Shown here piece after piece: positions 13,666 through 48,089 of a stretch of DNA of 64,000 bases (its first letter is position 1; each line of letters starts with the position of its first letter). The position numbers and the translations under genes are program-made. Location: contig CAWUHX010000354.1 in NCBI GenBank assembly GCA_963922205.1, positions 186,001-250,000 of the forward strand, given 5' to 3'. This DNA is from Romanomermis culicivorax. Lineage: Eukaryota; Nematoda; Enoplea; Mermithida; Mermithidae. The notes under the pieces are model-generated. The model was not told the origin of the DNA. It did no database searches and saw only the letters and a list, made by a program, of their open reading frames with translations.

Positions 13666-13671
13666 AACGGC

Positions 13672-13803
13672 AGTAGTATAGGGGGTCTATGGAGTCCCCA
13701 CACAAAACATAGCATTTTTCGGCCTATCCTTAAGTACAGGGCGGATAATATAAAAAATTGACCTAGCTTGCTCGAAAAGTTTATTAACCCGAATGACGTC
13801 ACC
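13672..13803. repeat. Maverick left terminal inverted repeat
   Basis: This 132-bp repeat aligns with the reverse complement of 28102-28233 with three substitutions and no gaps by eye (TATGG/TACAG near the tip, and TTG/TCG). The preceding six bases, AACGGC, are the target duplication. The high identity implies a recent insertion or ongoing TIR homogenisation. Confidence 0.97.
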
Positions 13804-18014: not shown

Positions 18015-18029
18015 CTTTTATACTTTTTT
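18015..18029 (-). promoter_or_regulatory. Shared TATA element before polB
   Basis: The coding strand reads AAAAAAGTATAAAAG, about 46-54 nt before the polB ATG at 17969. It matches the element-wide consensus AAAAGTATAAAAG. Confidence 0.75.
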
Positions 18030-18090: not shown

Positions 18091-18624
18091 TTACGCGCGA
18101 TATTTACAGATAATTCTCATAATACGAGGAAAGCCAATTAACATATCGTTTTTACATTTACAGCCAGTGAAAATAAGTTTACCCGAATGAAATATTACAA
18201 CAGTCATTTTGGGGTCATTCATTCTGAAAGTTAGGCCGGGGAACAATTCAGGTACGAACATACTTTGCTTGGGGTAGGCTTTGCACAATTGTTCCAGGCA
18301 AATTTTGAATCCGGTCGTATGGGAACCCACAAAATTTGCAATTTTAAAATTACTCCGCCTGCATGTGTATCCTTTACATTGTAGTCCCGCCATTAAATTA
18401 TCCAAGACGCAGGCAGCATCTGTGGCCGTTTTGATTCCCACACACACAACTCTTCCATTCCGAAAAATCAATAACGTCCCCATGGGGGTTGTCTCCTTTA
18501 AAATTAAAGCTGAGAATTTTCTGGGGTTGTATACACAGTCTGTAAATTCATTGTGTAGTTTGATCAAATCCAATTGGCACCCCAATTCCATTGTTACAGT
18601 CATATTTTGTATTGTAGAGGGCAT
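18091..18624 (-). CDS. TATA-binding protein (TBP) encoded by the Maverick
   Basis: 177 residues forming the two-repeat TBP saddle with almost no N-terminal tail. Repeat 1 starts with IQNMTVTMELGCQLDL, then YNPRKFSALIL and LLIFRNGRVVCVG. Repeat 2 has FKIANFVGS, PELFPGLTFRM and VVIFHSGKLIFTG. The four phenylalanines that kink TATA DNA in known TBPs are all present (F37, F54, F128, F145), as are the DNA-contacting asparagines (N7, N97). In the cell TBP nucleates polymerase II/III pre-initiation complexes. Here it sits between polB and the minor capsid gene, with its own TATAAATAG at about 18688-18698. It is clearly divergent from textbook animal TBP, for example VG instead of TG after the repeat 1 sheet. 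It is intact, with no internal stop. It could drive the element's own promoters or compete with the host factor; which one cannot be told from sequence. Confidence 0.93.
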   Translation of the reverse strand: MPSTIQNMTVTMELGCQLDLIKLHNEFTDCVYNPRKFSALILKETTPMGTLLIFRNGRVVCVGIKTATDAACVLDNLMAGLQCKGYTCRRSNFKIANFVGSHTTGFKICLEQLCKAYPKQSMFVPELFPGLTFRMNDPKMTVVIFHSGKLIFTGCKCKNDMLIGFPRIMRIICKYRA

Positions 18625-18685: not shown

Positions 18686-18700
18686 TCCTATTTATACCCG
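18686..18700 (-). promoter_or_regulatory. TATA element before TBP gene
   Basis: The coding strand reads CGGGTATAAATAGGAAG, about 65-72 nt before the TBP ATG. It is a variant of the element-wide motif: the TATAAA core is kept but the flanking A-run is missing. Confidence 0.55.
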
Positions 18701-18718: not shown

Positions 18719-19486
18719 TTAAAAATGAAATAATTGATTACTTTTTCGAAAATGTAACTTGACAATTACTTTTCCAGTTACAAAATTGACACATTCATTT
18801 GCATCTGTTTTAAGAAAAATTTCAATTTCTGAAAAGTTTTTGACCAATATGGGTACGTAGTGGGGGGAATCATATATTTTGTTAACAATTTCCCCGTATT
18901 TGTTTTCTATGCTCACAATTCTTACGAGAGGTGGGAGAACATCGCCCACTATTTGAGGTTCTACTAGGTTACAGTAGACGAACATAAACTCGAACCCCCC
19001 TCTTACGTCAAAGGGGTATTTCGACCATGTTGAGCTTAAAATTTTTGGTTCAGCAAATCCAAGAATGTGTTGCAATCGTAATGACAATTGTACACTTTCA
19101 ATAATTTCATTATTAATTTTGATACTAGCTTTTCTGTCGTAGTTATTGTAGGAGAACTCTATACTCTTGGCGATGTCAGCCTCATCATCAGCAGTTAATG
19201 CGTTTTTGATGGACCATGTTATGGTGTCAGTTAGTTCTTTCACTGAGGAATAATACGAGGTTGGAACACGAACAGTGTACAGTTTTTTAGATGAGGCGTG
19301 TTGAATAACAATTTCTTGGTCATTATTTGAAATATTTTCCCAAGTATGAGGGTAAATGATTTCGCACAATCCGCACTCCCAGTCCCCTTGGAGCATTAGC
19401 CTATAAGGCAATGGTACGCTAAAGTGACTGGCTTTATTGCCAGGATTACTCACTGTATTGCTAGGTAAGGTTATATAGAATGACAT
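18719..19486 (-). CDS. Minor capsid (penton-like) protein
   Basis: 255 residues from the chosen start. An in-frame ATG exists 11 codons further up (19519), but it touches the TATA box at 19523-19537. The second Met, at 19486 (MSFYITLPSNT), is therefore the likely start. It matches the penton/minor capsid protein of Polintons in layout: N-terminal SFYITLPS, then FSVPLPYRLMLQGDWECGL, EIIYPHTWEN, and a C-terminal strand with KVIVKLHFRK. This is a jelly-roll vertex protein in the predicted virion. It is intact and adjacent to the protease, major capsid and ATPase genes, as is typical of the morphogenesis block. Confidence 0.85.
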   Translation of the reverse strand: MSFYITLPSNTVSNPGNKASHFSVPLPYRLMLQGDWECGLCEIIYPHTWENISNNDQEIVIQHASSKKLYTVRVPTSYYSSVKELTDTITWSIKNALTADDEADIAKSIEFSYNNYDRKASIKINNEIIESVQLSLRLQHILGFAEPKILSSTWSKYPFDVRGGFEFMFVYCNLVEPQIVGDVLPPLVRIVSIENKYGEIVNKIYDSPHYVPILVKNFSEIEIFLKTDANECVNFVTGKVIVKLHFRKSNQLFHF

Positions 19487-19522
19487 TTTAAATAAAGATA
19501 CAACTGATAAGTTGCGCAACTC

Positions 19523-19537
19523 CTTTTATACCTTTTT
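19523..19537 (-). promoter_or_regulatory. TATA element before minor capsid gene
   Basis: The coding strand reads AAAAAGGTATAAAAGG. The TAA inside TATAAAAG is also the stop codon of the upstream protease frame (ends ...KKV, TAA). It lies about 38-46 nt before the ATG at 19486 and helps fix that start. Confidence 0.75.
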
Positions 19538-20030
19538 GATGTTGCATAGCTGATTAATGATAAAATGATCATCAAATACAGGTGTATTCATTAAAAATAG
19601 TTCATTGATAAATCCTGTGACATATTCATCAATGTAGGGGCATTTGGTTAAACAGTTGGTTATGGTTTTCATTGGAACCCCTCTTACTCTCCATATCAGA
19701 TAAAATAGGCAAAATTGTCCACAAGTTGCAGTTAAAAATGCTTGCAAACATTTTTTATTATATTTTACATTTGTTGAGTTTCTCAACATGTATTGTTGTA
19801 TGTGGGGTACGGGTGGAGACCCGTAACTATCAAAATACTAACACGTGCCATTTGCATCAAAATATAATGCGACCCAATGAGATCCCGATTCGTTATGCTT
19901 ATCCAAATTTATCACTAAAGCGCAGGGTACTGTTGTAACCAGTGGCAAAAGATCAATGGGATAAACACCAACTTGCACTTGTTTTAGCTTGGTCACTTTT
20001 TAGCACAGCCAATATTTCACTCGTATTCAT
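19526..20030 (-). pseudogene. Adenain-like cysteine protease (PRO), broken
   Basis: About 168 codons. The likely ATG at 20030 lies just after the major capsid stop. Visible pieces: VGVYPIDLLP; a GSHWVALYF block with the catalytic His; YFDSYGSPP with the acidic residue; and ATCGQFCLFYL with the catalytic Cys. This is the His-Asp/Glu-Cys order of adenovirus protease (C5/Ulp1 fold), which cleaves capsid precursors in Polintons. Two lesions are seen: a one-base frameshift within the first 25 codons (about 19985-19965) and a TAG at 19838-19840 just before the YFDSYG block. The C-terminal 87 codons (19526-19789) are open and contain the Cys motif. Without repair the copy cannot make active protease. 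Confidence 0.85.
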
Positions 20031-20032
20031 TT

Positions 20033-21322
20033 TTAAGCATTGTAATCATTGAACACTCGTCTGTTTTTATCTATCATAAGTAGATTGTCAAATTCAGCAT
20101 ATATTATCACTTCTATACCAGTGGCGGGAATGCCTTCAGCGAAGGTCAACTCGATGCTGGTTGAACCTTCCTTTATTAAGTCCCAATGCCCGCTATCATC
20201 TTCATCCGGTGTTAGATCGAATGCGAAATAACATTGACCATACTTGTAATTTTCTCTGCTTATCATATTACCCTTGTTGTCCTTCGCCATGTCTAGAACT
20301 TCGAACAGTTGATTATAAGCGTGTATGTACTTGTTATTGGCAAAGTCGAGTTTCAATGGATGAGAGGGAAATGTTTGTCCACCAGCTATGACTTTAACCT
20401 CAGTGATACTGTAACACTTGAAATTGAAGGGTGATTTTTTCAGGTTTCCCCTGTACGCATCAGCATCCACACACGCTATAATCATTCGCCTAGGTAATTG
20501 CCCCGTAAATAATGTATTAAGAGGTGCTGATTGTGCAGTGCTGGGGATATGCAAATTCATCATTACGACTCTGCGTATGGGATATTTTGCCGTGTGTTGG
20601 AGCATAGTTTGCTCCAGAGCCAATCCAACACTGTCCAACACTTCTACTTTACGAATGTACCATTTCATTTGTAATACCTCAAGTTTTGCTTCAACAATAC
20701 CCTGGGGGCTTTGTAACACAAAATCATTGTTATTTCTGTTCAATTCTAGCTTTAATTCTGTGAAATTCAACAGGTATCGATCTTGCATAAATAAATCAAT
20801 GTGCAGAGGAGCGGATACTTCAACGATACACCCGTCTGCGAAATAAGCAGCTCTCTCCTTGAACCCGGGGTTATCATCCATATCAATTTGTTTTCCGCTT
20901 TCCAATGTATACAATGCAGACTGTAGGTGGGTATTTTTTGCATCGTAACTGTAATTTAACTCTGTTTCAAAAAAAGCTCTATAAGCATATTTGTCCCTGC
21001 TGTCATATACGAGGCGTCCGTTTAAAAAAAGCTTAACTTGTCTGAAAAATGTTTTTCCAATCAAATTAATGGGTGCAAATACATGGGCGGCGGCAGCTGG
21101 AATAGTTAATTTCAACGTCATATACAAATAGTTTTTACTTAATTGCAACATGTTGGGGTCAGGCGGCACTCGAAATTCATAAGGGCCCTCATTTGTTATG
21201 GGGTTTACGGGGTTAGTCTCATCCCAATATCCCTTTTTGATGACCACCTGCGTGGGTGGTACTGTAAAAAAATCCAATTCAGATTTTGTGCTCGGAAAAG
21301 AGAGTGAATCAACGAGAGACAT
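20033..21322 (-). CDS. Major capsid protein (double jelly-roll)
   Basis: 429 residues, intact. It shows the Polinton major capsid pattern: an N-terminal DFFTVPPTQVVIKKGYWDE segment, GPYEFRVPPDP, FFRQVKLFLNGRLVYDS, and a second jelly roll with YRGNLKKSPFNF, VIAGGQTFPSHPL and C-terminal strands ending at IIYAEFDNLL. Polinton capsid proteins of this type are predicted to form a pseudo-hexagonal icosahedral shell. The ATG at 21322 is preceded by the shared TATA at 21378-21390. The protease start is only 3 nt after its stop, so the two genes are tightly packed. The length is at the short end for the family. Confidence 0.93.
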   Translation of the reverse strand: MSLVDSLSFPSTKSELDFFTVPPTQVVIKKGYWDETNPVNPITNEGPYEFRVPPDPNMLQLSKNYLYMTLKLTIPAAAAHVFAPINLIGKTFFRQVKLFLNGRLVYDSRDKYAYRAFFETELNYSYDAKNTHLQSALYTLESGKQIDMDDNPGFKERAAYFADGCIVEVSAPLHIDLFMQDRYLLNFTELKLELNRNNNDFVLQSPQGIVEAKLEVLQMKWYIRKVEVLDSVGLALEQTMLQHTAKYPIRRVVMMNLHIPSTAQSAPLNTLFTGQLPRRMIIACVDADAYRGNLKKSPFNFKCYSITEVKVIAGGQTFPSHPLKLDFANNKYIHAYNQLFEVLDMAKDNKGNMISRENYKYGQCYFAFDLTPDEDDSGHWDLIKEGSTSIELTFAEGIPATGIEVIIYAEFDNLLMIDKNRRVFNDYNA

Positions 21323-21351: not shown

Positions 21352-21750
21352 TTAAATATCATCCTGGTGTGAACTGGCTTTTATACTTTTCAGTCTAGAC
21401 CCCAACGCACCTCCTTTTTGTAACAATGCTTCACTACCCTTTTTTAATAAGCTTGAGACACCCTCTTTGCCGTGTTCTTCCAGAGCCTCTGTTATGGGCC
21501 GTCCTCTCAAATAGTCCGATGCAATATTTGAACCAGTGGATAATGCTTGTCTCCCAACGTGGGAGGAGACTGACTTAAATACGGGCACAGCCATTCTAAA
21601 TAGAGACCTAAAAAAGCTACCTAGTCCAGCTCCCCGTTGGTAAGGAGTACCCTTGAATCCAGTATAGTTACCGTAACCAGTTTGTTCAGCCTGGTCAGTA
21701 TAGTACTGTAACCAGACGTTCAAATTTTCAGGATTGTAATATTGGCGCAT
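21352..21750 (-). CDS. Small conserved Maverick protein (glycine-rich/amphipathic, possible virion component)
   Basis: 132 residues. The N-terminal part reads MRQYYNPENLNVWLQYY. A GY-NYTGFKG-PYQRGAGLG segment follows, then an amphipathic stretch SFFRSLFRMAVPVFKSV and a Gly/Ala/Ser helix. This layout recurs in Polintons next to the capsid gene and is thought to be a minor virion protein; a membrane-active role like adenovirus pVI is only a guess. It is intact. The TATA element of the following major capsid gene lies inside its 3' coding end. Its own promoter is a doubled motif at 21784-21804. Confidence 0.65.
   Translation of the reverse strand: MRQYYNPENLNVWLQYYTDQAEQTGYGNYTGFKGTPYQRGAGLGSFFRSLFRMAVPVFKSVSSHVGRQALSTGSNIASDYLRGRPITEALEEHGKEGVSSLLKKGSEALLQKGGALGSRLKSIKASSHQDDI
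21378..21390 (-). promoter_or_regulatory. TATA element before major capsid gene
   Basis: The coding strand reads AAAAGTATAAAAG, a perfect consensus, about 56-64 nt before the ATG at 21322. It lies within the last codons of the upstream 132-residue gene. Confidence 0.8.
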
Positions 21751-21783: not shown

Positions 21784-21804
21784 TTTTTATACTTTTATAC
21801 TTTC
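21784..21804 (-). promoter_or_regulatory. Doubled TATA element before 132-residue gene
   Basis: The coding strand reads GAAAGTATAAAAGTATAAAA, two overlapping motif copies, about 34-50 nt before the ATG at 21750. The first TAA is the stop codon of the upstream gene (ends ...RLKV). Confidence 0.75.
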
Positions 21805-22826
21805 AGTCTATTCCACATAGTTCTTGTGTTTATTCTTTTCAGAGACCTCCGGGGTGATGAGGAGGGCGTGGACACTGACGATAAGGGTGATACATAAATG
21901 TCATCATCCAGCAAAGTTAACCTAGACTTATTGGTGATAACCGAAAGGGGAACATTAGCTTTGTGCAAGTTTTTTACAAAAATTTCAGCACCGATAGCAG
22001 GCAGTCTGCTTCTGCTATCACGGGAAAAATCTGAAATTAAATCAATAATATTTGTCCCTGCAACTTTCTTTCCATCAACGATCATTTCCCCCACATCAGA
22101 CCACTGCATGTGAGGATTTTTCTTCGCGTAATTATAAAGTTCCCTGGCGAATATTTGATATTTTTTAGGAATTACGGATAAAGCGCTTTCTAAAAAGGTG
22201 TCAGTATGTGATGAGGCACCCGGAGCATTTTCAGGTTCATTGGGTGCAGGTACGGGTACCAACAATGGGGGTTCTCGAACCTCAACCTGAAACGGTTTTG
22301 TTTGCTCATCAATTGCTTTCATATACCTATGTAATACTTGATTATAAAGAATTAGTTTCGAGTCAGTATGCAACTGCCTATCTTGCAAAATTTTATTCAT
22401 TTCCTTGTCCAGGTTAGAGGTTAATGTAGCATCGCGCCTGGCTACATCGTGAGGAACTAGAATCATTTTGTTTGTGTGCATCATTTTTTCCTTTAAAGCA
22501 TCAATTAATAATTGACCTGCTATTCCTAGAACTGGAGCCAACAATGCGGGCAAAAAACCGCCTCATTGCTCGAGTATTGTTTTTCTATCCTTTAACTTTG
22601 TGTTTTTATCCGCTAGAATTCTCAAATTGTATTTATGCCTTTTTAATTCCTCAACTTTTTTGGGTGGGACCTTTATATTTCCGTTTAATGTGTTAAGTAT
22701 GCACTCGCATAAGCACAGAATCAGATCGTCATCAGCTGTTTGTATAATAGCTTTGCGCTGCTTAGGTTTTGCTTTGGATAATACTTTGATATAGTTGATG
22801 TTACGTTTTAGTCTATCAGGAGCCAT
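21795..22826 (-). CDS. Conserved Maverick accessory/virion protein, one in-frame TGA
   Basis: One frame of 343 sense codons plus one internal TGA. It starts at ATG 22826 (MAPDRLKRNINYIKVL) and is interrupted by TGA at 22563-22565 between ...KTILEQ and GGFLPALLAPVLG. It then runs open to 21795. Family-like blocks are: a helical Lys-rich N-terminus with CECILNTLNGNI; the hydrophobic GGFLPALLAP segment after the stop; VPHDVARRD; LYNQVLHRYMKAI; a linker rich in Pro/Glu; and a C-terminal NIIDLISDF...IGAEIFVKNLHKANVPLS domain. This is a widespread Polinton gene of uncertain function, probably structural. The TGA sits in a conserved stretch and looks like a single-base nonsense change. A smaller protein from the downstream part would need a non-ATG start. 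Confidence 0.75.
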
Positions 22827-22858: not shown

Positions 22859-22873
22859 CTTTTATACTTTTGG
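22859..22873 (-). promoter_or_regulatory. TATA element before accessory gene 21795-22826
   Basis: The coding strand reads CCAAAAGTATAAAAG, about 33-41 nt before the ATG at 22826. Its GTA-TAA supplies the last Val codon and the stop of the upstream ATPase gene. Confidence 0.8.
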
Positions 22874-23488
22874 CAAATATACAGCTGGGTAATCAGAAAA
22901 TATTCCAGTTCTGAGTCTAAATTTATCTGGAGTTGTCTGGGATAAGTCAATTAGCAAAAAGCTGAATGGTTTTAATGTAGCATCTGTGTAGGCTTCCAAA
23001 AAATATTTAACATTAGATGGGAATAACTGCCAGGCTAGGATATTTATTTGCAATTTATCTGTGAGATTTTTCATAAGTACGATATACTCGGCATTAATTC
23101 TAGACGTCCGCAACCCCGAAAAAAATATATTCTGTACAATATGGACTACGGAAACACTCAAGTGGTGACAACCAGGTGTGAATAATGCAATGAGTTGAGG
23201 ATTATTTTTCATTTCGAGCATCAAATCATCTAAAATTAACATCTGAGGCATTGGTGTGTGCTCCCTGATAAGACTCATGTCGGGTAATCCTTGAATGATT
23301 GTGACATTTTCATTTTTAAGTTCATCATATGCATCCTGATACTCGGTATAACACCAGTAGATTTTTTGTGGAACAGGGTATACCATAGCATTCACATTTT
23401 TTATCAGTTCATTGACAAATGTCGTTTTTCCAGCCTTGGTGGGTCCCGAGACCAAGCACATAAATGGGTGTTTAAAATGGAAATCCAT
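22862..23488 (-). CDS. Genome-packaging ATPase (FtsK/HerA-A32 type)
   Basis: 208 residues, intact. Walker A is SGPTKAGKTTF (about residues 14-24), Walker B is MLILDDLM (about 83-90), followed by the HHLSVSVVHIVQN sensor-like strand. The size and motifs match the A32-like packaging ATPases of Polintons, virophages and large DNA viruses, which pump DNA into capsids. It sits next to capsid genes. Its stop codon overlaps the TATA element of the next gene. Its own TATA is at 23514-23527. Confidence 0.93.
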   Translation of the reverse strand: MDFHFKHPFMCLVSGPTKAGKTTFVNELIKNVNAMVYPVPQKIYWCYTEYQDAYDELKNENVTIIQGLPDMSLIREHTPMPQMLILDDLMLEMKNNPQLIALFTPGCHHLSVSVVHIVQNIFFSGLRTSRINAEYIVLMKNLTDKLQINILAWQLFPSNVKYFLEAYTDATLKPFSFLLIDLSQTTPDKFRLRTGIFSDYPAVYLPKV

Positions 23489-23513: not shown

Positions 23514-23527
23514 CCTTTTATATAATT
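23514..23527 (-). promoter_or_regulatory. TATA element before ATPase gene
   Basis: The coding strand reads AATTATATAAAAGG, about 27-35 nt before the ATG at 23488. It keeps the TATAAAAG core, with a different upstream flank from the consensus. Confidence 0.65.
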
Positions 23528-23562: not shown

Positions 23563-23913
23563 TTAATATCGAACAGCAAGCCACATTTCGGCATCAAGGG
23601 CGCTGTACACCCGCATTACCCATATATCTCTATACTGAGGGTGAATAGAACGCCATAAGTGGTGAAAAAAATGCTCATCAGGTGTTAGCAATGCTTTTTC
23701 CAGGGACAAGGCGAACAGCCAAAATCCTTTTTTTTTCTTTTTTTCTCCTTCTTGGGGCACCCTTTTCCATTCATGCTTGAAATGTTGCGCCATTTTCTCC
23801 CAAAAGTAGGATGCAATACTGGCCAATTGCGCATTGGTATGATATGGACGGACAATTAGCATATTACTGAACTGCACCATGAATTGGTGGAACATGACTT
23901 GCTCGAACTCCAT
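23563..23913 (-). CDS. Unrecognised 116-residue Maverick protein
   Basis: It begins MEFEQVMFHQFMVQF, is aromatic-rich (many Phe, Trp, His and Tyr), and has a Lys run KKKKKGFW in the middle. No signal peptide or membrane segment is obvious. The perfect TATA element at 23940-23954 and the close spacing to the ATPase support a real gene. The family was not recognised. Confidence 0.6.
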   Translation of the reverse strand: MEFEQVMFHQFMVQFSNMLIVRPYHTNAQLASIASYFWEKMAQHFKHEWKRVPQEGEKKKKKGFWLFALSLEKALLTPDEHFFHHLWRSIHPQYRDIWVMRVYSALDAEMWLAVRY

Positions 23914-23939: not shown

Positions 23940-23954
23940 CCTTTTATACTTTTT
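23940..23954 (-). promoter_or_regulatory. TATA element before 116-residue gene
   Basis: The coding strand reads AAAAAGTATAAAAGG, about 28-36 nt before the ATG at 23913. It matches the element-wide consensus. Confidence 0.75.
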
Positions 23955-23991: not shown

Positions 23992-24234
23992 TTAACGTCT
24001 TAGCACGGATGTAGCTGCGTGTTGCACGGCCAGATTATAGTCTACGCATCTGGGGCACATGCTTACTGTAAATAACATTTTACCCCCTGAAGTTACGAAG
24101 CAGTCTCGTTCGCACGTATTTTTCTGACAAAAATAACACAGTTGTATGGTTAGAGGGTACATGGGACGTTTGTAATTGCGGGAACACAACTGAATGGGTG
24201 ATGTTATCGTCTTTCCTCCATTTTTCGACTCCAT
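23992..24234 (-). CDS. Small zinc-ribbon-like protein (80 aa)
   Basis: The Cys pairs CYFCQKNTCERDC and CPRC, about 20 residues apart, look like a zinc ribbon. The N-terminus is basic and polar. The family was not recognised. A TATA-like element, AAAAGGTATACAAG (24268-24281 on the plus strand), lies about 35 nt before the ATG. It sits between the 116-residue gene and the integrase. Confidence 0.55.
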   Translation of the reverse strand: MESKNGGKTITSPIQLCSRNYKRPMYPLTIQLCYFCQKNTCERDCFVTSGGKMLFTVSMCPRCVDYNLAVQHAATSVLRR

Positions 24235-24285: not shown

Positions 24286-25344
24286 CTACAGTTTTATTAA
24301 CTCAGTGACCCATGAGTTAAATTTGGTGGGGTGACCTCTCCACTTTACAAAATATTCGGTTTTTCCACCACGTTTTCTGGTTTTTATTACATTTTCCACA
24401 ATGCATACATCATCGAAAATATCGATTTTTTGAAGTTCTTGTTCATAAAATATACCCTCTAAAATTTCGCCCAATGCATCCTTCAAAAGGTAGACGGGTG
24501 GATGTCTGGCTTTACATTGATGTACAGTAAACGTCTCTTCGCTCCAGTTCGGGGTATATCCCTTTTCAAAATGCCCTTTGACCTTGCTAATGCGTACTTT
24601 ATCACCCTGTTTATACTTCAAAATAACAGATTTATTTGGGGGTAACTGGAACGCCCTTTTTAGTACAACATTTTGATTATTTTTAGACACAGAACTGGGG
24701 GCCATTCCTATAGTCCTGTGTACAGACGTGTTGTAAGCTACCACCAAATCTGGTAAAATATTTACGTATCGGTACGTGTTGTTTCTGGTAAAATAACGCC
24801 ACATTTTTTCCTTCAAGGTTCTATTGAACCGTTCTACAATGCAAGCTTTTGTTTCACTTTTTGTTGTGAAAAATTGTATTCCCGCCTTTTTTAAATAAGC
24901 TTGAAAATCTTTATTCACAAACTCAGTCCCGGCGTCCGTCTGAATTTTTTGCAGTTTACGACTGGATGACGTCAATATGCCATCAAAAGCTTTTATTATG
25001 CTAGCACCAGTTTTGTTTTTTAGGGGTACAACCCACGCATACTTTGAAAAAAGGTCTACGCAGGTCAACAAATATTTTTGCCCATCGTTATATTTTGATA
25101 TAGAGGTCAGGTCAACCAGGTCCATCTGCCATTGTTCGTCTATGCTACTTACAATAACCTTATTCTGGGGGTACGTACGCCTGGCATACTTATGCACAAC
25201 ATAGGTCGTTTGTTGGGCTAGCCAACTTTTTACTTTTTTTATTGTGATTTTATCGTCAACTTTTTTGGCCCTTTCGTATAAGTTACGCAGACCACTATAT
25301 CCTTCAGTTGGATCATAGTATAATTTATGCAACAATGCATCCAT
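24286..25344 (-). CDS. Retroviral-type DDE integrase with C-terminal chromodomain
   Basis: 352 residues, intact. The rve core has first Asp in WQMDLVDLTSI (about residue 74), second Asp in QTDAGTEFVN and Glu in IVERFNRTLKEK, giving the D,D(35)E pattern. Upstream is the helical N-terminal region, and downstream an SH3-like segment (YKQGDKVRISKVKGHFEKGY). The last about 50 residues are a chromodomain (IVENVIKTRKRGGKTEYFVK then WRGHPTKFNSWV), as in many Polinton integrases, where it may target chromatin marks. This enzyme would make the 6-bp duplications seen at the element ends and perhaps at 59632-60625. Confidence 0.95.
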   Translation of the reverse strand: MDALLHKLYYDPTEGYSGLRNLYERAKKVDDKITIKKVKSWLAQQTTYVVHKYARRTYPQNKVIVSSIDEQWQMDLVDLTSISKYNDGQKYLLTCVDLFSKYAWVVPLKNKTGASIIKAFDGILTSSSRKLQKIQTDAGTEFVNKDFQAYLKKAGIQFFTTKSETKACIVERFNRTLKEKMWRYFTRNNTYRYVNILPDLVVAYNTSVHRTIGMAPSSVSKNNQNVVLKRAFQLPPNKSVILKYKQGDKVRISKVKGHFEKGYTPNWSEETFTVHQCKARHPPVYLLKDALGEILEGIFYEQELQKIDIFDDVCIVENVIKTRKRGGKTEYFVKWRGHPTKFNSWVTELIKL

Positions 25345-25348
25345 GTTT

Positions 25349-25699
25349 TTATTTTTTTATAAAATATGCACAGTTTTTGCGCATTTTTATACAATCAAAT
25401 TTTTTTGAACAATAAACACAAAATTTTATTTTAATAATCAGACGATCTTTTGCATCTCGTTTCATGAATACAAAGCATTTTGGACATGGTTCATTCTGGT
25501 CACTTGGTTTTTCTGCAATGTGTGAATAGTTGGGTAGATCAAATAACGTACGATAAGGCACCCTGTGCACTTGCCTGCATATTATATAATGCCGAACACT
25601 TTTAGGCGTTTGGCCACACGTTTCACAAGGTTGATTCATGTTTGGCTTTTTAGCTCCATAATGAACGCAAAAGCACCTACTTTTATAATGTTTTCTCAT
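25349..25699 (-). CDS. Cys-rich (zinc-ribbon-like) 116-residue protein
   Basis: The CETCGQ, CPKCF, CVYCSKKFDC and other Cys pairs suggest two zinc ribbons. It is basic overall. The start ATG overlaps the stop of the upstream 67-residue gene as ATGA (25699-25696), and its end is 5 nt from the integrase ATG, so these three may be co-expressed. The family was not recognised. Confidence 0.55.
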   Translation of the reverse strand: MRKHYKSRCFCVHYGAKKPNMNQPCETCGQTPKSVRHYIICRQVHRVPYRTLFDLPNYSHIAEKPSDQNEPCPKCFVFMKRDAKDRLIIKIKFCVYCSKKFDCIKMRKNCAYFIKK

Positions 25700-25899
25700 G
25701 CAATATTAGGTTGCCTACGGAAATGTTTTCGAGTATACAGAATATCCATAAAATATTTTTGCAACATTTTAATTAAAAGCAATGCAGCCAAAATAATTAG
25801 CAGTATAACGCAGCTCATAATTTCATTATAGAGGGACTTTACCTGGGAACCATTTAAACAGCCATCCGATAATAATTCTGACGAATTTGAAAAATTCAT
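25696..25899 (-). CDS. Small single-pass membrane protein (67 aa)
   Basis: A polar N-terminus (MNFSNSSELLSD, with an NSS glycosylation site) is followed by one strong membrane segment, SCVILLIILAALLLIKML, and a basic tail. The perfect TATA element at 25928-25942 and the ATGA overlap with the next gene support it. The function is unknown. Small membrane proteins occur in virions, but that is only a suggestion. Confidence 0.6.
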   Translation of the reverse strand: MNFSNSSELLSDGCLNGSQVKSLYNEIMSCVILLIILAALLLIKMLQKYFMDILYTRKHFRRQPNIA

Positions 25900-25927: not shown

Positions 25928-25942
25928 CTTTTATACTTTTCG
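25928..25942 (-). promoter_or_regulatory. TATA element before 67-residue membrane protein
   Basis: The coding strand reads CGAAAAGTATAAAAG, a perfect consensus, about 30-38 nt before the ATG at 25899. Confidence 0.8.
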
Positions 25943-26789: not shown

Positions 26790-27641
26790 TCAGTTTACAA
26801 CATTTTGAAGGGGGCACGCCCCCATAAAAATTACCCGTACATTATTACAAAAGCAAAGGCACCGCAATGGATTTCTAAGTTTTACATGAAAATTATGCGT
26901 GACATCAGTACAATGAGTTTCGGACCCAGAGGCAAAAAATACAGTAGCTGAATTATTTGGCAAAGGATGCAAATTATTTAAGAAAGCAATCAGGTTTGCT
27001 AAAACATGTTCAGCTACACGCAAGTTTGAAAATCTTACATTCAAAATAGAGGGACGTGTGCGGATAATATTCAAAAATGCATCCGAATTCTCAACATCAT
27101 CTTGAGTAAATGTGACAGTTTTTACATTGGGTGGTAATAGTAACTCGATAAAAAGGTTTGGAACTGATAAAGTTTCAATTTTTGGCATTGAAAAAAGCAA
27201 ATTTTGGTGCAAGATGTATCTGGATATGTCCAACGTTGTGACACATTTTTCGCACATGGCCGCCAATAGTTGAAATAATTGCACATTTTGGGTATCAATG
27301 ATGAGACGATCAGGTTGGACTTTTCGTAAAATAGCCCTTATCCTTTCAAAATCTGATTGTGGGACGGTGGGCTGGACTCTTACCCGGATTACAGTCTCGT
27401 ATGATTGACTATTGTTTATTTCTGGTATAAGTTTTCTTTTGGAGATAACTCTTTTATTGATTTGAAAGTTGGCAGCGTGACGGCCGATGTCTACAGCTAC
27501 TCCGGAAGATGGGGGGAATTTGCACACATGACAGGCGTTGCGCCACTTTTTGCATACTGGTTCGCAGGTTCGAATCCGTTCGTACCATGGAATATATGTG
27601 AGAATATGAAAGAGCAGTTCCAACGGTAAAGAATTTGTCAT
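26790..27641 (-). CDS. F-box protein with LRR-like C-terminal region (cargo gene)
   Basis: 283 residues from the start MTNSLPLELLFHIL. An in-frame ATG 18 codons earlier would add a hydrophobic stretch before the F-box and is less likely. F-box: SLPLELLFHILTYIPWYERI then CEPVCKKWRNAC (about residues 4-40). After it come about 240 residues of leucine-rich, LRR-like repeats, as in the large nematode F-box families. F-box proteins bind Skp1 and recruit targets to SCF ubiquitin ligases. The gene is intact, intronless and inside the right TIR, so it moves with the element. No strong consensus TATA lies close by; TATAAAAAA sequences occur at about 27780-27805. It may have been captured from a nematode host. 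Its target cannot be predicted. Confidence 0.8.
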   Translation of the reverse strand: MTNSLPLELLFHILTYIPWYERIRTCEPVCKKWRNACHVCKFPPSSGVAVDIGRHAANFQINKRVISKRKLIPEINNSQSYETVIRVRVQPTVPQSDFERIRAILRKVQPDRLIIDTQNVQLFQLLAAMCEKCVTTLDISRYILHQNLLFSMPKIETLSVPNLFIELLLPPNVKTVTFTQDDVENSDAFLNIIRTRPSILNVRFSNLRVAEHVLANLIAFLNNLHPLPNNSATVFFASGSETHCTDVTHNFHVKLRNPLRCLCFCNNVRVIFMGACPLQNVVN

Positions 27642-27695
27642 ATTCAAAAGAAAAAGTATTGAACGTAAGTTGCACGTAATAGCCAAGAACAACAA

Positions 27696-28101: not shown

Positions 28102-28233
28102 GGTGACGTCATTCGGGTTAATAAACTTTTCGAGCAAGCTAGGTCGATTTTTTATATTATCCGCCCTGTACTTAAGGATAGGCCGAAAAATGCTATGTTT
28201 TGTGTGGGGACTCTGTAGACCCCCTATACTACT
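28102..28233. repeat. Maverick right terminal inverted repeat
   Basis: Reverse complement of 13672-13803 with three substitutions. It is followed by the second copy of the 6-bp duplication AACGGC (28234-28239). Confidence 0.97.
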
Positions 28234-28449
28234 AACGGCCATCTGCTGTTAATGTCGACATGACAAATTTGGGGCGTTTGAAAAAAAAATCATAATTTTG
28301 TCACCTCAATGGTCGTGAACGAAATATTTTTGCTAAAATGACTACAGTAATTTGCCCGGCACTAAATTTTTCATGTTGAACTTATGTTGTGCCGTGGATT
28401 TTGACTCATCTTTTGAAAGCTAACCTGTTTCATCTGGTCGGGAAAGGGA

Positions 28450-31056: not shown

Positions 31057-31301
31057 CAGTTTTTCTTCAAATGCTTCTGAATAATGAAAGTGGAAAGCAA
31101 GTAGTATTTCAGATTTTCACGATTTTCTGATAAACAATATATGATACAGCAATGGAAATTTGTGAGCATACTGGCCTAACCTTTAACAATTTTTTGAGTG
31201 AAAAATTTTACAGAAAGAGCTCTATGTAAACGATTTTGACGACGATACTGATTTGTGTCGCTTTTCTATTTGAAAGCATTTCATAAAGAAATGGACTATA
31301 G
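31057..31301 (-). mobile_element. MITE (CTATAGTCTG family), copy 1
   Basis: About 245 bp, the inverse of 33568-33819 and 53350-53600. It shares the words AATGAAAGTGGAA, AGTATTTCAGATTTTC, TGGCCTAACC and AAAAATTTTACAG. The right tip GGACTATAG is intact; the left tip is worn. Confidence 0.75.
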
Positions 31302-31699
31302 TATCGTACAAGAGATCTGACATCAGCCATATTTTCGAAAACGTCATATTCAGACTATGATGAGCAAAGGTGAATCTGTCAATCTATGTGCTACAAGTAC
31401 TACGAGCAAATTTATGGGGACGTGTAGAGCATTATCCATGCGAGAACTGATCCTCGAGGTATTCCGGCTGTTCATCACACGGCCTGCCAAGTACACACCA
31501 TCATCATTACAACGACAATTTCCGAACCATCCACATAGCGCTCGAATTATTTTAGTATGCAGTGAGTCTGTTTTTGAGTTTGAGCAGACAATAAACCTGC
31601 ATCGTCAGCTAAAATATTTGTTCTGAATTAAGTCGCACAACTATCACAGTCAAGTCGAAAAGAAAAGTTGGCTCTATACTAGGACCTGAACTTAAGCCT

Positions 31700-32845
31700 G
31701 AAAGATCAGCCCGTCCCGAAATACAAGCTGCAGACCAGGCTTGGGCTGCCTGAAAAAATTCTCGGGACAGCCCGACCTATTTTTCAAAAGCCCGATAAAG
31801 CCCGACAAATTTTAATGTGCAAGTAGTTTTTGATTAAGCTCGTGGTGATTACTGCATCAAATAAATTTTGCTCATAACATCTAATTTTTTTCAATGTACC
31901 TGAAGAAAACCAAAAAATTTTCGATTTTTCACATTTTTTTGAAACCAGAAACCATGGACGGAGTAGACAAAGCTCGGCCCGACCAACTACGCTCTTTACT
32001 CACACTCTTTCTTCTCTCCCCCGTTTTTTGCTCTACCAAATGAAATTGCATTTACACAAGATTTTAAGACACGATTTCTGAGAGGATTCAACTGAGTTGT
32101 GATAAGTAAAAAATTAGCACTACCTGAAAATCACATATTTGGTGTAACTTGATGCACTAGGAACGATGTCTCATTTTTAAAATGTATCAAGTTTTGATTC
32201 TCTCACAATAGAAGTCACAATTATCAGAGAATGTAATTATAAGATGGTATCCATACTTCAAGTCTGTGACCCTCTGGCAGTAGAAGACATCATAAGCTAT
32301 CTATTGAATAGAAAATTTTTTGGTGCTTCTGAGATTTAGCGGTAGATATGATGACTTTGGTGAAAAAATGACAATTTTCGCTTTCAAAATTTGATGCTTC
32401 GAGCGCCACTGTATTCTTAATACGTACTTTACACTAATGAATCCTAAAGTAAATTGCGAACCATCTATTGGTCTAATATTGGGTAAATTTTCAGAACACT
32501 ATGTCTGATGTAGCTAAACTTGCAAAGGTTGAAAGAACTGTAGGTCAAAAATCGAAAAGGTCGAAAATCGTCAATTTCAGCGTCAAGTTACGTCAAATAT
32601 GTGATTTTCAGTTAGGGTTAATTTTTTACCTAAATCGCGACTCTCTGTATGAGAAGCTGAATTTTTTCAGTTAGTGTGTCTTAAAATCGGACTTTCGTGT
32701 CGGGCTTCGGGTCTTGTTCTTTTAATCGGGCCAGATCGGGTCTCAAGGTTAAAGCCCGATTTCGGACCGGGTCGAGTTCGGGCTTCTAAAAAAAATATTC
32801 AAGCCGGGCCGGAAATTCCGAGACCGATTCGGGCATCACTCTTTA
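31700..32845. mobile_element. Fold-back element with GCCCGA arms
   Basis: The left arm (about 31708-31808) repeats AGCCCGA and CCCGACA. The right arm (about 32690-32842) repeats the inverse, TCGGGCT and TCGGGCC. The core of about 880 bp is AT-rich without a gene. It has the same design as the fold-backs at 42030, 54310 and 56812, but a different arm motif. Confidence 0.6.
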
Positions 32846-33058
32846 CACAGGTTGTTTGTAGTTTGGACGAGCGGTTTTAAAAAACAGACTAGTGTAGTCT
32901 CCTCTAGGCCCAATTTTTCATTGTCACAGAGCTTAAATTTATAATTCACAGGAATTTCATGAATTTAATCAACTCTACCGTATCTTGGATCATTAATGTT
33001 ATTTATCATTTTTGTACATATTTTCAGATAAATATTTTTTTTTACCATTTTTCCAAAA

Positions 33059-33271
33059 AGTCGATCCTGTATCAAACCAACTAATGACACAAAGATCACT
33101 TATACCTCGCATGGTAACAGTCAGCCTTTTGCCGACTATAAAGGCCTTATTCCGGCATACAATGATTATTGGTCTTTGAAGGTCACCTGTAAGACATCAT
33201 GTAAGACGGACGCCAACCAAGACAAGCAGGCATGTACCTTCGACCTGCCGTATTCAAAGCAGATGCACTAA
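33059..33271 (+). CDS. Orphan terminal exon of a Cys-rich secreted protein
   Basis: A 70-codon open frame without an initial ATG, ending at TAA 33269-33271. It begins around SCIKPTNDTKITY and contains PFADYKGLIPAYNDYWSLKV, then CKTSCKTD and ACTFDLPYS. Composition and regular Cys spacing look like real coding sequence. The acceptor is unclear: the good TTTTCAG at 33027 gives a stop in this frame, so either a weaker AG at 33060 is used or the gene is broken. No upstream exon could be joined in phase. Confidence 0.4.
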   Translation, partial: SRSCIKPTNDTKITYTSHGNSQPFADYKGLIPAYNDYWSLKVTCKTSCKTDANQDKQACTFDLPYSKQMH

Positions 33272-33370
33272 ACTGCACTAACCAAGCTACACAGATGGTT
33301 CATAGACTTTTTTTTGTAAGAATGGTGTGTGCAAAACTGGTGGACGATGAACAGCAAAATACACCACCAC

Positions 33371-33447
33371 AGGCCATCTTAGTCTAGTGGTTATTACCAC
33401 CGACTACTGGTCTCAAGAACTAGGTTTGGACTCCGGTGTAACCCCTT
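33371..33447 (+). repeat. tRNA-like SINE head fragment
   Basis: It contains the A-box-like TTAGTCTAGTGGTTA and a B-box-like AGGTTTGGACTCC. It resembles the heads of the SINE copies at 34689 and 61525-61886 but lacks their body. Confidence 0.4.
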
Positions 33448-33567
33448 TTAACTGGCCCAGGTATATACAATAAGTATATACTAAAATGTTACAGGAAATA
33501 TGTAACATTTTAGAAAAGGTTACATATTTCCTGGAGTTTATCTATTTTCTTATAAAACTTTACAGTA

Positions 33568-33819
33568 CTATAGTCTGTTTTTTTTATAAAAATGCTTCAA
33601 ATAGAAAAGTGACACAAATCGGTATCGTTGTCAAAATCTTTTACATAGAGCTCTTATTGTAAAATTTTTCACTCGAAAAATTGTTAAAGGTTAGGTCAGT
33701 ATGCTCACCAATTTCCACTGCTATATGATATATTGTTAAAAAAAAATCGAGAAAATCTGAAATACTACCTGCATTCCACTTTCATTATTAAGAAGCATTT
33801 CAAGAAAAACAGACTATAG
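33568..33819 (+). mobile_element. MITE (CTATAGTCTG family), copy 2
   Basis: 252 bp. It begins CTATAGTCTGTTTTT and ends AAAAACAGACTATAG, with perfect 10-bp inverted tips and about 28-bp imperfect TIRs that include AAATGCTTC/GAAGCATTT. Related copies are at 31057-31301 and 53350-53600, and end fragments at about 29353-29376 and 35466-35495. It has no coding capacity and possibly depends on a Tc1/mariner-type transposase (TA at the tips). Confidence 0.8.
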
Positions 33820-44165: not shown

Positions 44166-45605
44166 ATGACCCACCAAACGCAAGATCATTTAGGAGAAAT
44201 CGTTAGAGAACAGATAAACGATTTATTTTCAGAACATTTTCGTACCCTACGCACACAATTGAATCAGAATACAGTAAACCCTACCCTAATAGACGATCTA
44301 AGAACAGCAAACATTCGTAATAACATGGCTAACAATTTCTACGCGAAACCTACAGTATTCACGGGCGGCGTGACCCAACATTTTGGTGAATGGAACAAAA
44401 GATTAGAACAATTCATGGCACTCCAAGGCATGAAAGATACAGACGTACAGTTAAAGTTGGCATGTTTAGAAATTCATTTAGGAGGAGCCGCATTAGCAAA
44501 ATTCAAAAGTTTAGCAAATTCTGAAAACCCTCCCCACACATACGAGCAGTATAAAGTCGCATTACAGGCATTTTTCCCAAACAATAGAGATAATGAGCTA
44601 CATCAACAATTCTTACGCGAAAGAAAACAAAAGCGTTCAGAAACAGTAACGGAATTCTTATTTGATCTAGAACATCTCGCAACCCTCGCCTACCCTAACT
44701 TTAACACAGACGCACGAGAAATGATCATAAAACCCCTCTTTGTAGAAGGCATGCAAAACGAAATCAGAGAAGCAATTAAGTATAGAAGGTTCGCAACTCT
44801 AAAAGAAATGTCAGACGAAGCAGCTTACATTGAACAGCAAATTCTTAGAAATGAGTTAAAATCCAACGCCCTTCCCTTCATACCCCCAAAACCGGAACCC
44901 ATCTTTTCCCTAACCAAAAATACAGACCAACAGGATCTTTTACATCAGTTAGAACAACAAGTAAAAGATTTACAGTTGCAGATCAAACAAAAACCTCAAC
45001 CCCCACAACAAAGTAGCTACAACAATTTCAGTAACAATACTTTCAGCAGGAATAATGCTTACAGGAACAATACCATCCCTAGGCAACCCACATGCTTCCA
45101 GTGTGGACAAATCGGACACGTAGCTCGTAATTGTAAATCAGTAGGCACCCGAAAATCATGTGAAATCTGTTTCCGTAATAATCACAGTACACGCGATTGT
45201 AAAAGCCGATGCATCCACTGCTCCCAAACAGGACATAGATCAGATAACTGCCTTTCCAAACCCTACTCAAACTTTCAATGTTTTATATGCAAGCAGGGAG
45301 GTCATACAAGCAGGTATTGTCCAAATCAGCAGAGTCGTAATATTCAAAATTGCATTGAGTACAGGCAACCCCAACCCCTCATGGACATTGATGACCCCGC
45401 ATTTTACTCAAAATTACCCGCCATAACTAACGGCCCTCAGACTACTTTAGGAACTATCATGCCCAACACCCACCGCCGTAGTGACGAATACGTCCTTGAT
45501 CTGGACGTACCCGATTGGTGCGCCATGTCACCACCCCCCACGCCTGAAGCTGCAAAAATCGAAAAATCGCCGCCCACCATCCCTGTAGGCTACAAGATCC
45601 CCTGA
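44166..45605 (+). CDS. gag: Gag polyprotein with four CCHC zinc knuckles
   Basis: 479 residues, intact. A capsid-like helical region (about residues 50-230, including FGEWNKRLEQFMALQG and the retrotransposon gag pattern FLRERKQKRSETVTEFLFDL) is followed by a Gln/Asn-rich linker. Then come four CX2CX4HX4C knuckles: CFQCGQIGHVARNC, CEICFRNNHSTRDC, CIHCSQTGHRSDNC and CFICKQGGHTSRYC. Knuckles bind the element's RNA for packaging. The frame ends at TGA 45603-45605. The same frame continues openly into the env-like ORF, so readthrough or subgenomic expression is possible. Confidence 0.93.
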   Translation: MTHQTQDHLGEIVREQINDLFSEHFRTLRTQLNQNTVNPTLIDDLRTANIRNNMANNFYAKPTVFTGGVTQHFGEWNKRLEQFMALQGMKDTDVQLKLACLEIHLGGAALAKFKSLANSENPPHTYEQYKVALQAFFPNNRDNELHQQFLRERKQKRSETVTEFLFDLEHLATLAYPNFNTDAREMIIKPLFVEGMQNEIREAIKYRRFATLKEMSDEAAYIEQQILRNELKSNALPFIPPKPEPIFSLTKNTDQQDLLHQLEQQVKDLQLQIKQKPQPPQQSSYNNFSNNTFSRNNAYRNNTIPRQPTCFQCGQIGHVARNCKSVGTRKSCEICFRNNHSTRDCKSRCIHCSQTGHRSDNCLSKPYSNFQCFICKQGGHTSRYCPNQQSRNIQNCIEYRQPQPLMDIDDPAFYSKLPAITNGPQTTLGTIMPNTHRRSDEYVLDLDVPDWCAMSPPPTPEAAKIEKSPPTIPVGYKIP

Positions 45606-47708
45606 AAACAAGACACTACGCCGCCCACCACCCCAGAAACCCCGTCGAAAACAGGCCCCAACTTGTTATCCCTTCTCCATGGCCTGACCCCCGAACATTA
45701 CCAATTTCGCCCCCGCCAAACACTCCTACCAACCCCCGCAAGTAAGCAAGTCCAAACCCCATCCCATAACTCAACTTCTAAAGTTTTACAGAATGTTCAG
45801 ATTTCAAACCGGCCACCCCCTCAGCTCAAAATCGCAAAACGACAACACCAAAAGCCCCAACACCAAACCGGCCACAACGAAAACATACAGTGCCCCGCCG
45901 CCTCCACTAAAACATTCTATTGGCCGATGTTTTGTATTTTTCTTTGTATAATAATCCCCACATCGTGTAGTGCCCAATTTCAGATGTGTGGAACTTCATT
46001 GAGCGGTCACTCAATCAGCATACCGAAACTTGTATCATGCATGCCCCCTTCCACAGTAGACAAACCCGTACAAACATTCGGAAAAATCTATATCCCCTCC
46101 ACTAAGCCCCACATTACAGACGCATACAAATGCAGTGTTCGCAAACGCAAAATTTGTACTAATACAGGATTTTTTGGATCAAAAGGTATTGTCTTCGACC
46201 AAACCGAAATGCAAAATCTAACCCCACATGTTTGTAAGGCAATCGTTATAGACAAAGAACACAACGGTCAAAAATTATACGAAACCCAACCAGGATTTTG
46301 GTCAACAAATAACTCCCTAAGCGTAGAATACACATGGTGTTGTACAGACCATTGTACCTCGGTCACTAACATCATCATAGAAATAGGACAAATAGCATCT
46401 TGGAATGGAAAATCTATGACAGGTACATTAGGCGACCTAGGGTCATGCAAACCGACATCAGGTCATTGTGTTACAGCTGACGGATCCATTATCTGGAATG
46501 AAACAGCATTTGAAAACTTATGCCCCTTCGAATACAAAAACACACATCCCATCAAACTCACACAAACCCACATGATAATAGAAGAACTACAAGGTGCATT
46601 CTCGGTTAAAAATACAGTTTTTTCGAACCCTAATTGCCCAGAAATCCAAGACAGCATTCTAACCGAACAAGGCATTATTGTACAACTAGACAAAAGCACC
46701 CCACATCGTAACGCATTTTTAACCCCAAAAAACAACGAAACTCATACTACACTATACGATTTTGATGATTTTGAACCCATCAATGCAAAACTAAACTATC
46801 TAGCAGACAAAATACAGGAATTCGAAATTCAAAATTTCAAAAATGTATGGAGTGAATTATGCAGACAGGCGCAGCGTCACCTTGATCTCGTATGGCAAAT
46901 TTTACATCTTGATGCAACCCTTGGAGCACGTGCATTCCTACAGAGAACCGACATAATAGCAGAATTCACAGGAGAAGCCCTCACAGTCTGGCCCTGCAAG
47001 CAGGTAAACGCATCCAGAGTCTTTTACAACCACAAAATCAACCAAACATGCTACAAACTTTTGCCCATCCTCGTAGGAACTGAACTCATGTTTTCAAATC
47101 CAGGAGGCAACGATTTGACCCCTTTTTCACAAACCGTTGACTGCCATCACATGCATGTAGCCCTTTACAAACAGAATAATACATGAGTCAGTGAAACAGG
47201 ATCCCCGCATGTCACAAATTTACCTTTAGAAATCGTCTGGAACCAAAATTTCTCCCTTTTTCATTTTAATACACCCGCCATTTTTCATGATCAACTTGCA
47301 ACTATTTCAACCAACTTACTCTTTTTGAAACAATACATTTACAAAACTCACACACTCGAAAACATTGTCAAAAAACTCGTCAATTACACCGCCCAAATGT
47401 CTCTCAATTCCGATACAGTTTACAACATGATCTCAGGCACTGGCCAAGCACTCGGAAATACACTCTCTGGCGCCGGTCAAGGCATAGAACATGTAATAAC
47501 CGGTACCACCCAAAGTCTCACAGACGGATTAAACAATTTACTCAAAGGACCCCTGCAAATCATTATCAATCTCGAAAATTATTACTGTAGTTATTGCAGG
47601 CGTCTTTTATTCGTTTCTCGTTCTTCGAAAATATTTCCCCTCTCCAAAGCATCATGCCACAAACGAACATGCATACGAAATACCATCAAACAACAGACAT
47701 TTACATGA
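45606..47708 (+). pseudogene. env: Env-like glycoprotein gene, with breaks
   Basis: A frame open from the gag stop through 47183. It contains an N-terminal Pro/Gln-rich region, a hydrophobic signal-like segment FYWPMFCIFLCIIIPTS (about 45919-45970), and a long ectodomain with about 20 Cys and several N-glycosylation sites. A TGA at 47184-47186 is followed by more in-frame sequence with a Gly/Thr-rich repeat region (near 47400-47550). A membrane anchor plus basic tail appears in a neighbouring frame near 47580-47640, so there is also a frameshift. This architecture is that of a type I envelope glycoprotein. The viral source family was not assigned. No ATG was found near the start of the frame, so a splice from the leader or gag readthrough would be needed. 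Confidence 0.7.
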
Positions 47709-48089
47709 GACAATTCCCCCATCATTCGGCCATGCTCTCTTAGAATTAGCTAATCGTCGTGGTGCACAAACACAGCAGAAATACATCCTTGTCGATATTG
47801 ATACCCCCCGAACTCCTGCAATCGAACTCATTAATCAAATTCACCAATCTGCATCAAATAAGCCACCCCAGAATGTACCTGAGAAACATACCCCTCATAT
47901 TCCAATCACACTTAACGGCAAATTAATGACAAAAGGCATGATTGACACTGGTGCAGTTTACTCACTCATTTTCCCGAGTCGAGCAACTTTTACAATTAGA
48001 CATGAAACCCCCGCTAGTCCAAGCATAAGCAGCAAATAATCTCCCAATTCACTTTGTAGGAACCACTTTTGTGTTAACCCTCATTTTTT
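47709..48089 (+). pseudogene. Retropepsin (PR) region, out of frame with RT
   Basis: The aspartic protease active site IDTGAVYSL is visible at about 47941-47967, preceded by a strand-rich HIPITLNGKLM. Its frame (+1) differs from the RT frame (+0) and closes shortly after, so at least one frameshift separates PR from RT. No second conserved protease motif was found. Confidence 0.6.

Follow-up and report, generated by a model that had tools for sequence, protein, structure and literature searches.

An element-encoded TATA-binding protein in a Maverick/Polinton lineage of the mermithid nematode Romanomermis culicivorax

Small nuclear DNA viruses are expected to depend on host transcription factors, and a kinship of Polintons with adenoviruses, virophages and giant viruses is under discussion. 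An open reading frame (ORF) in the genome of Romanomermis culicivorax, a mermithid parasite of mosquito larvae, raises the question of whether such an element can hold a general transcription factor of its own; a conserved TATA-binding protein (TBP) together with TATA boxes in a 14.6-kb element would be an exception to host-factor dependence. The ORF lies in the window, by which we mean the whole analysed stretch of 64,000 nucleotides on contig C354, and an earlier, sequence-only reading of the window had proposed it to be a compact TBP serving a Maverick/Polinton as a private transcription factor.

The identity of the ORF was established by profile search, which gave a strong match to the TBP family rather than none. 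Pfam profile PF00352 matched in two stretches with an E-value of 5.7e-42, revealing two tandem TBP repeats, and residues 3-176 were matched by TBPs of the PDB at 1e-32. The gene is read from the minus strand, the plus-strand reading in that frame containing 9 stops. Alignment with the yeast TBP core required no internal gap and showed 36% identity. All four DNA-kinking phenylalanines and both central asparagines, as claimed beforehand, occupy matching yeast positions (F37, F54, F128 and F145 corresponding to yeast F99, F116, F190 and F207; N7 and N97 to N69 and N159). AlphaFold2 modelled the window TBP with a mean pLDDT of 91.8 and an order of strands and helices that is repeated twice; for one family B TBP (families are defined below) the pLDDT was 94.1, and PF00352 matched 12 of 12 element TBPs scanned. 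TRF2/TBPL1 proteins have lost the intercalating phenylalanines, all four of which are present in the window TBP, and this identity was rejected, the tree described below containing no TRF2 sequence. Two UniRef proteins of R. culicivorax appeared, by eye, to be gene models fusing capsid pieces with the window TBP.

The carrier is an element of 14,562 bp bounded by terminal inverted repeats and a 6-bp duplication (Table 1). The repeats begin with AGTAGT and are identical at 129 of 132 positions. In its polB, rve integrase with chromodomain, double jelly-roll capsid, P-loop ATPase, inverted repeats and 6-bp duplication the element agrees with animal Maverick/Polintons (adintovirus-like), from which it differs by a TBP gene with the minor capsid gene on one side and polB on the other; the coordinates of ORF and repeats confirmed this position well within the repeats. 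The polB, integrase, capsid and ATPase genes are all on the minus strand. The polB N-terminal ORF is in the frame of the C-terminal ORF, and in other copies its matches lie next to C-terminal polB sequence. Since polB is interrupted between 16340 and 16449, the window copy may itself be immobile; a stop-free match is present elsewhere in the genome. The major capsid protein (MCP) scored 26.9 bits against PF21738, 0.1 bit below the curated cut-off of 27, and the ATPase matched PF00910 above the cut-off and Pox_A32 below it (0.0017). We take the ORFs at 18719..19519, 19526..19789, 21352..21750 and 21795..22553 to be a penton-like minor capsid gene, part of a cysteine protease gene, a pX-like gene and pY, respectively. 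The F-box protein encoded near the right end may be cargo that targets ubiquitin pathways of the host. Neither a TFIIB-like factor nor a polymerase subunit was found by Pfam among the 16 ORFs of the window element scanned; as its short cysteine-rich ORFs match nothing, a diverged TFIIB-like factor might be encoded there.

Table 1. Features of the window element and of the TATA boxes before its genes (positions in the window).
Feature	Position	Strand	Remark
Target-site duplication AACGGC, left copy	13666..13671	.	
Left terminal inverted repeat, 132 nt	13672..13803	+	
polB C-terminal ORF, 767 aa	14037..16340	-	PF03175 5.7e-37
polB N-terminal ORF, 506 aa	16449..17969	-	own Pfam polymerase match absent
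TATAAAAG box	18015..18022	-	53 nt before polB ATG
TBP gene, intact, 177 aa	18091..18624	-	PF00352 5.7e-42, PDB TBPs 1e-32
TATAAATA box	18689..18696	-	72 nt before TBP ATG
Putative minor capsid (penton-like)	18719..19519	-	18719..19486 when counted from its ATG; without confident Pfam match; adjoins TBP in family B too
TATAAAAG box	19523..19530	-	44 nt before minor capsid ATG; overlaps upstream ORF stop codon
Short ORF, putative cysteine protease part	19526..19789	-	Pfam match absent
Double jelly-roll MCP	20033..21322	-	PF21738 3.4e-6
pX-like ORF, 132 aa	21352..21750	-	
TATAAAAG box	21378..21385	-	63 nt before MCP ATG
TATAAAAG box	21792..21799	-	49 nt before 21352-21750 ORF
252-aa ORF	21795..22553	-	TATA box at first ATG not found
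87-aa ORF	22563..22826	-	
TATAAAAG box	22859..22866	-	40 nt before 22563-22826 ORF
P-loop ATPase, putative packaging ATPase	22862..23488	-	PF00910 3.3e-6
TATAAAAG box	23515..23522	-	34 nt before ATPase ATG
116-aa ORF	23563..23913	-	weak matches (26-31%) in family B, C, D loci
TATAAAAG box	23941..23948	-	35 nt before 23563-23913 ORF
80-aa cysteine-rich ORF	23992..24234	-	match in family B locus L024
Retrovirus-type integrase with chromodomain	24286..25344	-	PF00665 2.2e-14, PF00385 7.4e-8
TATAAAAA box	25384..25391	-	47 nt before integrase ATG
ORF	25696..25899	-	box at 25928..25935 stands before its start
TATAAAAG box	25928..25935	-	36 nt before 25696-25899 ORF
F-box protein	26790..27695	-	PF12937 5.1e-6
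Right terminal inverted repeat	28102..28233	-	
Target-site duplication AACGGC, right copy	28234..28239	.	

The gene is not confined to the window copy. The available part of PMC10879605 gives the R. culicivorax v2 assembly as 359.1 Mb in 595 scaffolds, with 6.5 Mb of Polintons. In the genome searched (359,112,060 bases, 595 contigs), the window TBP had at least 157 matches, 150 of 264 candidates being scored; among the 150 typed, 88 were near full length, covering 163 or more of the 177 residues, and 61 of the 88 were stop-free. Copies were grouped by capsid identity into families A (81-100%), B (64-79%) and C (50-52%). As 98 of 1629 capsid candidates were scored, copy numbers are lower bounds; the 98 were obtained after leaving out 4 short N-terminal family C pieces belonging to copies already counted. 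Capsid genes were paired with TBPs using all 150 TBP matches and 13 matches at other places. A same-strand TBP within 4 kb downstream of the capsid gene was found in 72 of the 85 family A and B genes listed (family A 9/10, family B 63/75), at a distance of 1.2-1.7 kb in 66 of the 72 pairs, and in none of the 13 listed for family C; an opposite-strand TBP within 5 kb was seen at 0 of the 98. Most family B loci read had the order protease, minor capsid, TBP of the window. In family C, no TBP was detected by profile among ORFs of at least 60 aa in C80:164000-173400 and 173500-181500, which together reach from polB to beyond the capsid gene, nor in the part read of a second copy (L016). In three family C loci (L015, L016, L073) polB runs on the opposite strand; Pfam matched neither of two ORFs that lie between it and the ATPase gene. 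One locus placed in family B by default (L059; capsid match 46-55%, TBP 29%) is a more distant TBP-bearing copy and perhaps belongs to a further lineage.

TATA boxes were found before most genes of the window element. TATAAAAG occurs 9 times in sense and 0 times in antisense orientation (mean 0.87 and maximum 6 in 500 shuffles), and 8 of the 9 sense sites stand 34-63 nt before an ORF start. TATAAA was present at -20 to -80 of 10 of the 15 ORF starts, compared with a mean of 1.2 and a maximum of 6 in 5000 for the same TATAAA count at random places; among sense ATGs, 26 of 370 had TATAAA in that range. AGTATAAAAG was found 6 times in the element and 0 times in the remaining 49 kb of the window. 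The F-box gene has its nearest TATAAAAA boxes 147 and 166 nt before the first ATG. A Fisher test of window starts (10/11) against family C starts (0/7) gave p 2.5e-4, a post hoc value, the 11 window starts having been picked after seeing the data, with 4 ORFs of unsure start left out; all starts gave 10/15.

Boxes recur in related copies. Of the 7 further family A copies examined, 6 have TATAAATA before the TBP gene at -72 or -65, as have two group D copies at -46 (group D is a set of 14 loci assembled by hand). Family B TBPs have no clear box of their own, since the TATAAAAT at -66 of many of them falls within the last coding stretch of the minor capsid gene and was not taken as a promoter. 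Before the minor capsid gene, TATAAAAG was found in 31 of 33 copies examined, which are kin and not independent (family A 4/4, family B 27/28; together 31/32). The L059 gene has TATAAATA in place of TATAAAAG, and in the family C copy L016 TATAAAAG was absent and TATAAATA present only at -8. This conservation is partly forced, because TATAA overlaps the upstream ORF stop codon in the window copy. When TATAAA or TATATAA at -90 to -25 of the starts examined was scored as a box, boxes were present at 13/17 in family A, at 43/66 in family B, including the coding coincidence before TBP, at 2/7 in TBP-bearing group D, where 6 of the 7 are TBP starts and several come from near-identical copies, and at 0/9 in TBP-less family C, where some come from two copies of one gene. 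Family C copies contain five TATAAAAG sites each in a repeated tract after MCP, away from the gene starts used; one of its members, L073, has one TATAAAAG per strand, neither at a gene start used. Presence of TBP and presence of boxes are thus clearly linked in A, fairly in B and weakly in D, and boxes are absent at the starts examined without TBP, the contrast with family C being a single comparison.

To compare the surfaces of the protein, residues were aligned for 16 element or metagenome TBPs. DNA-contact residues were mostly kept. The exceptions were the second kinking phenylalanine, replaced by Tyr in the 6 family B copies shown, the third, replaced by Tyr in L067, and the first, replaced by Ile in L019; T124 was Val or another residue in many, and R196 was lost in most of family B. 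For the basic patch of the first repeat, the residues presumed to contact TFIIA, NC2 and Mot1 (yeast K133, R137, K138, Y139, R141, K145) read R, R, K, Y, R, K in the host TBP and A, D, N, L, A, C in the window TBP. The patch was changed in families A and B and partly kept in D and in the metagenome proteins P0123 and P0126; Tyr139 was missing from 16/16, and also from Trichoplax TBP. At the positions that we take to contact TFIIB (yeast E186, E188, L189), the window TBP has V, E, L and group D E, E, L or I, and at the two glutamates family B has T or S, then E (K in L029). The E186 glutamate was thus lost in families A and B, and E188 was kept in 15 of the 16. According to the available part of PMC7221094, the first-repeat basic cluster binds TFIIA, Mot1, Brf1, Brf2 and TAF1, viral TBPs have lost it and may thereby escape host regulators, and two TBP glutamates contact TFIIB; viral TBPs have also diverged at the positions for TFIIB, so that host TFIIB may not be recruited by them, and several viruses have a TFIIB of their own.

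From these sequence features we infer DNA binding, use of TFIIB, escape from host regulators and the choice of genes served. On balance, we think it probable, by a modest degree, that the element-specific TBP marks the TATA promoters of the element for host TFIIB and RNA polymerase II. It would bind and bend TATAAAAG-type boxes 34-72 nt before most element ORFs (10/15), and its remaining TFIIB surface would recruit TFIIB and RNA polymerase II, which would be those of the host because neither was found among the element ORFs scanned. The changed basic patch would leave the protein largely blind to host TFIIA, TFIID/TAF1, Mot1 and NC2, and this blindness could allow transcription of element genes under conditions in which host TBP is scarce or restrained. 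The weakest links are that A and B retain only half of the TFIIB surface and that boxes are few in D. The private transcription factor proposed earlier thus gained from the boxes at 10/15 window starts and 0/9 in TBP-less family C and lost from the 2/7 in TBP-bearing group D, its role staying a deduction. More tentatively still, and with somewhat less than even confidence, a Polinton lineage may have evolved a minimal orthogonal start system consisting of one private TBP and TATAAAAG boxes before most genes, lacking a polymerase or TFIIB of its own, using host RNA polymerase II and blind to the regulators of host TBP. If so, it would be, to our knowledge, the smallest virus-like genome with its own general transcription factor.

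As TATA boxes would serve host TBP too, they do not prove use by the element TBP. Host TBP could be the factor that uses the element promoters, with the element TBP competing at host promoters or titrating host factors and so reshaping host transcription in favour of the element. We consider this rather unlikely. The mostly kept DNA contacts and the one TFIIB glutamate would allow binding to host TATA boxes, families A and B have an altered regulator-facing patch, and group D carries a TBP with boxes at only 2/7 starts; however, an action on host genes does not require boxes at 10/15 element ORFs against 0/9 in the TBP-less family.

Less probable again, and in our view improbable, is that the TBP fold serves a task other than initiation, such as DNA bending for replication, integration or packaging. 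In the window, polB is the neighbour of TBP, and the inverted repeats could make use of a protein that bends DNA. The earlier suggestion to look for TBP beside polB in other Mavericks was followed within the same genome: in group D, polB was present in the stretch read at 9 of the 14 loci and in none of the other 5, on the strand opposite to TBP at 8 of the 9 and on the same strand at 1 (L063). Against a bending role, family B keeps TBP, and no polB adjoining its capsid genes was found in a genome search with 59 of 2408 candidates scored, and the E188 glutamate facing TFIIB is kept in 15/16 TBPs. In the flank read downstream of TBP in family B (L022-L053), polB was likewise not found, and these copies, which keep capsid and TBP, may perhaps depend on the polymerase of another element.

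Mavericks carry cargo genes, and a TBP captured from a host could be a passenger carried without function, a reading we disfavour as very improbable. An F-box gene is aboard as well, and dN/dS for the window TBP and L067 was 1.01. Pairwise NG86 estimates, made without a significance test and with dS saturated in several of the 15 pairs, were nevertheless well below 1 in most, with 0.11-0.39 in 11/15; L017/L020 gave 1.66 on almost no changes, and two pairs were undefined. A passenger is further opposed by the one fixed place of the gene in 72/85 listed copies and by DNA-contact residues mostly conserved at 28-40% identity between the window TBP and the element TBPs of other families.

The host TBP gene was found at C95, intron-split and canonical, 70-82% identical to yeast TBP. 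A recent retrocopy of it, inserted by chance in one Maverick, is refuted: the window ORF is intronless and the host gene has introns, but the identity to the host exons is 31-40%, and copy number, the canonical host gene, the capsid-TBP pairing at 72/85 listed A and B places and the separate tree cluster rule it out.

The tree proposed with the earlier note comprised 40 sequences, 22 of them element TBPs. Element TBPs of A, B and D and three metagenome proteins formed one cluster apart from cellular TBPs with support of 89/98, and A grouped with B at 99/98, the bootstrap not having settled; the host TBP fell among the cellular TBPs, outside the element cluster. Because long branches meet, two further trees were made, one with A and the other with D as the sole element group, and each then stood on its own side of a branch (100/98-99, no outgroup). 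The simplest reading would be a single ancient acquisition, after which the gene was inherited within Mavericks; two separate acquisitions of TBP by Mavericks are possible. The outgroup was a haloarchaeal virus TBP, the one TBP in phage records (28.6%). The metagenome proteins P0123, P0126 and P0138 came from a profile search (best 120 of 2777, 16 sequences taken), and their place in the cluster suggests that the gene may occur beyond R. culicivorax. A protein search with the yeast TBP core returned named matches that were nearly all fungal. In viral contigs, four scans for relatives and one pattern scan yielded no confirmed TBP or element relative, which is weak evidence of absence as the patterns were narrow. 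We conclude from gene, place and conservation that the window ORF encodes a TBP belonging to the element and inherited within a Maverick/Polinton lineage.

Virus-borne TBPs as such are known, from Mimiviridae and relatives, African swine fever virus (ASFV; B263R) and Bodo saltans virus; what appears to be new is a TBP kept in dozens of Polinton copies of several lineages. In the portions of the literature available to the search, no Polinton-borne TBP was found, and an earlier mention in papers on nematode Polintons is possible. TBPs in large DNA viruses are described in the available parts of PMC11410667, PMC7458399, PMC3620924, PMC5871332 and PMC10132985, and, like the element TBP, viral TBPs keep DNA-binding positions and diverge at the host-regulator surface (PMC7221094, as available). 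ASFV and Bodo saltans virus, as far as the sources at hand tell, have their own RNA polymerase subunits and TFIIB-/TFIIIB-type factors, whereas none was found among 16 ORFs of the element. TBP is reported in 59% of mirusvirus genomes (PMC10132985, in part); these viruses differ from the element by genomes of hundreds of kb and an HK97-type capsid and are not Polintons. TBPs also occur in algal elements without double jelly-roll capsids, according to the accessible part of PMC10675990. The element TBP, recognisable by sequence and accompanied by TATAAAAG boxes, also differs from the TBP mimics of herpesviruses. Those mimics direct host RNA polymerase II to late viral promoters, are very diverged, and act with several viral partners on TATT boxes. 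If the reading as a minimal orthogonal start system is true, it would show that a TBP can be captured and kept alone, before a full viral transcription apparatus exists. The conserved element TBP also bears on how large DNA viruses acquired their TBPs. With its regulator surface changed and its DNA face mostly kept, the protein offers a natural probe of the control of TBP by TFIIA, Mot1, NC2 and TFIID.

Two further elements were noted in the window. At 31059-33810, inverted repeats of 168 and 75 nt (87-89%) lie about 2.3-2.6 kb apart and perhaps mark another terminal-repeat element. A retroelement at 44166-50867 (+) contains gag, reverse transcriptase (RT) and integrase and is, by our reading of the domain order, of Gypsy type; its ORF 45663-47186, between gag and RT, matched a Monjiviricetes fusion glycoprotein (PF24664, 5.5e-15) and is probably an env-like capture in an unusual place.
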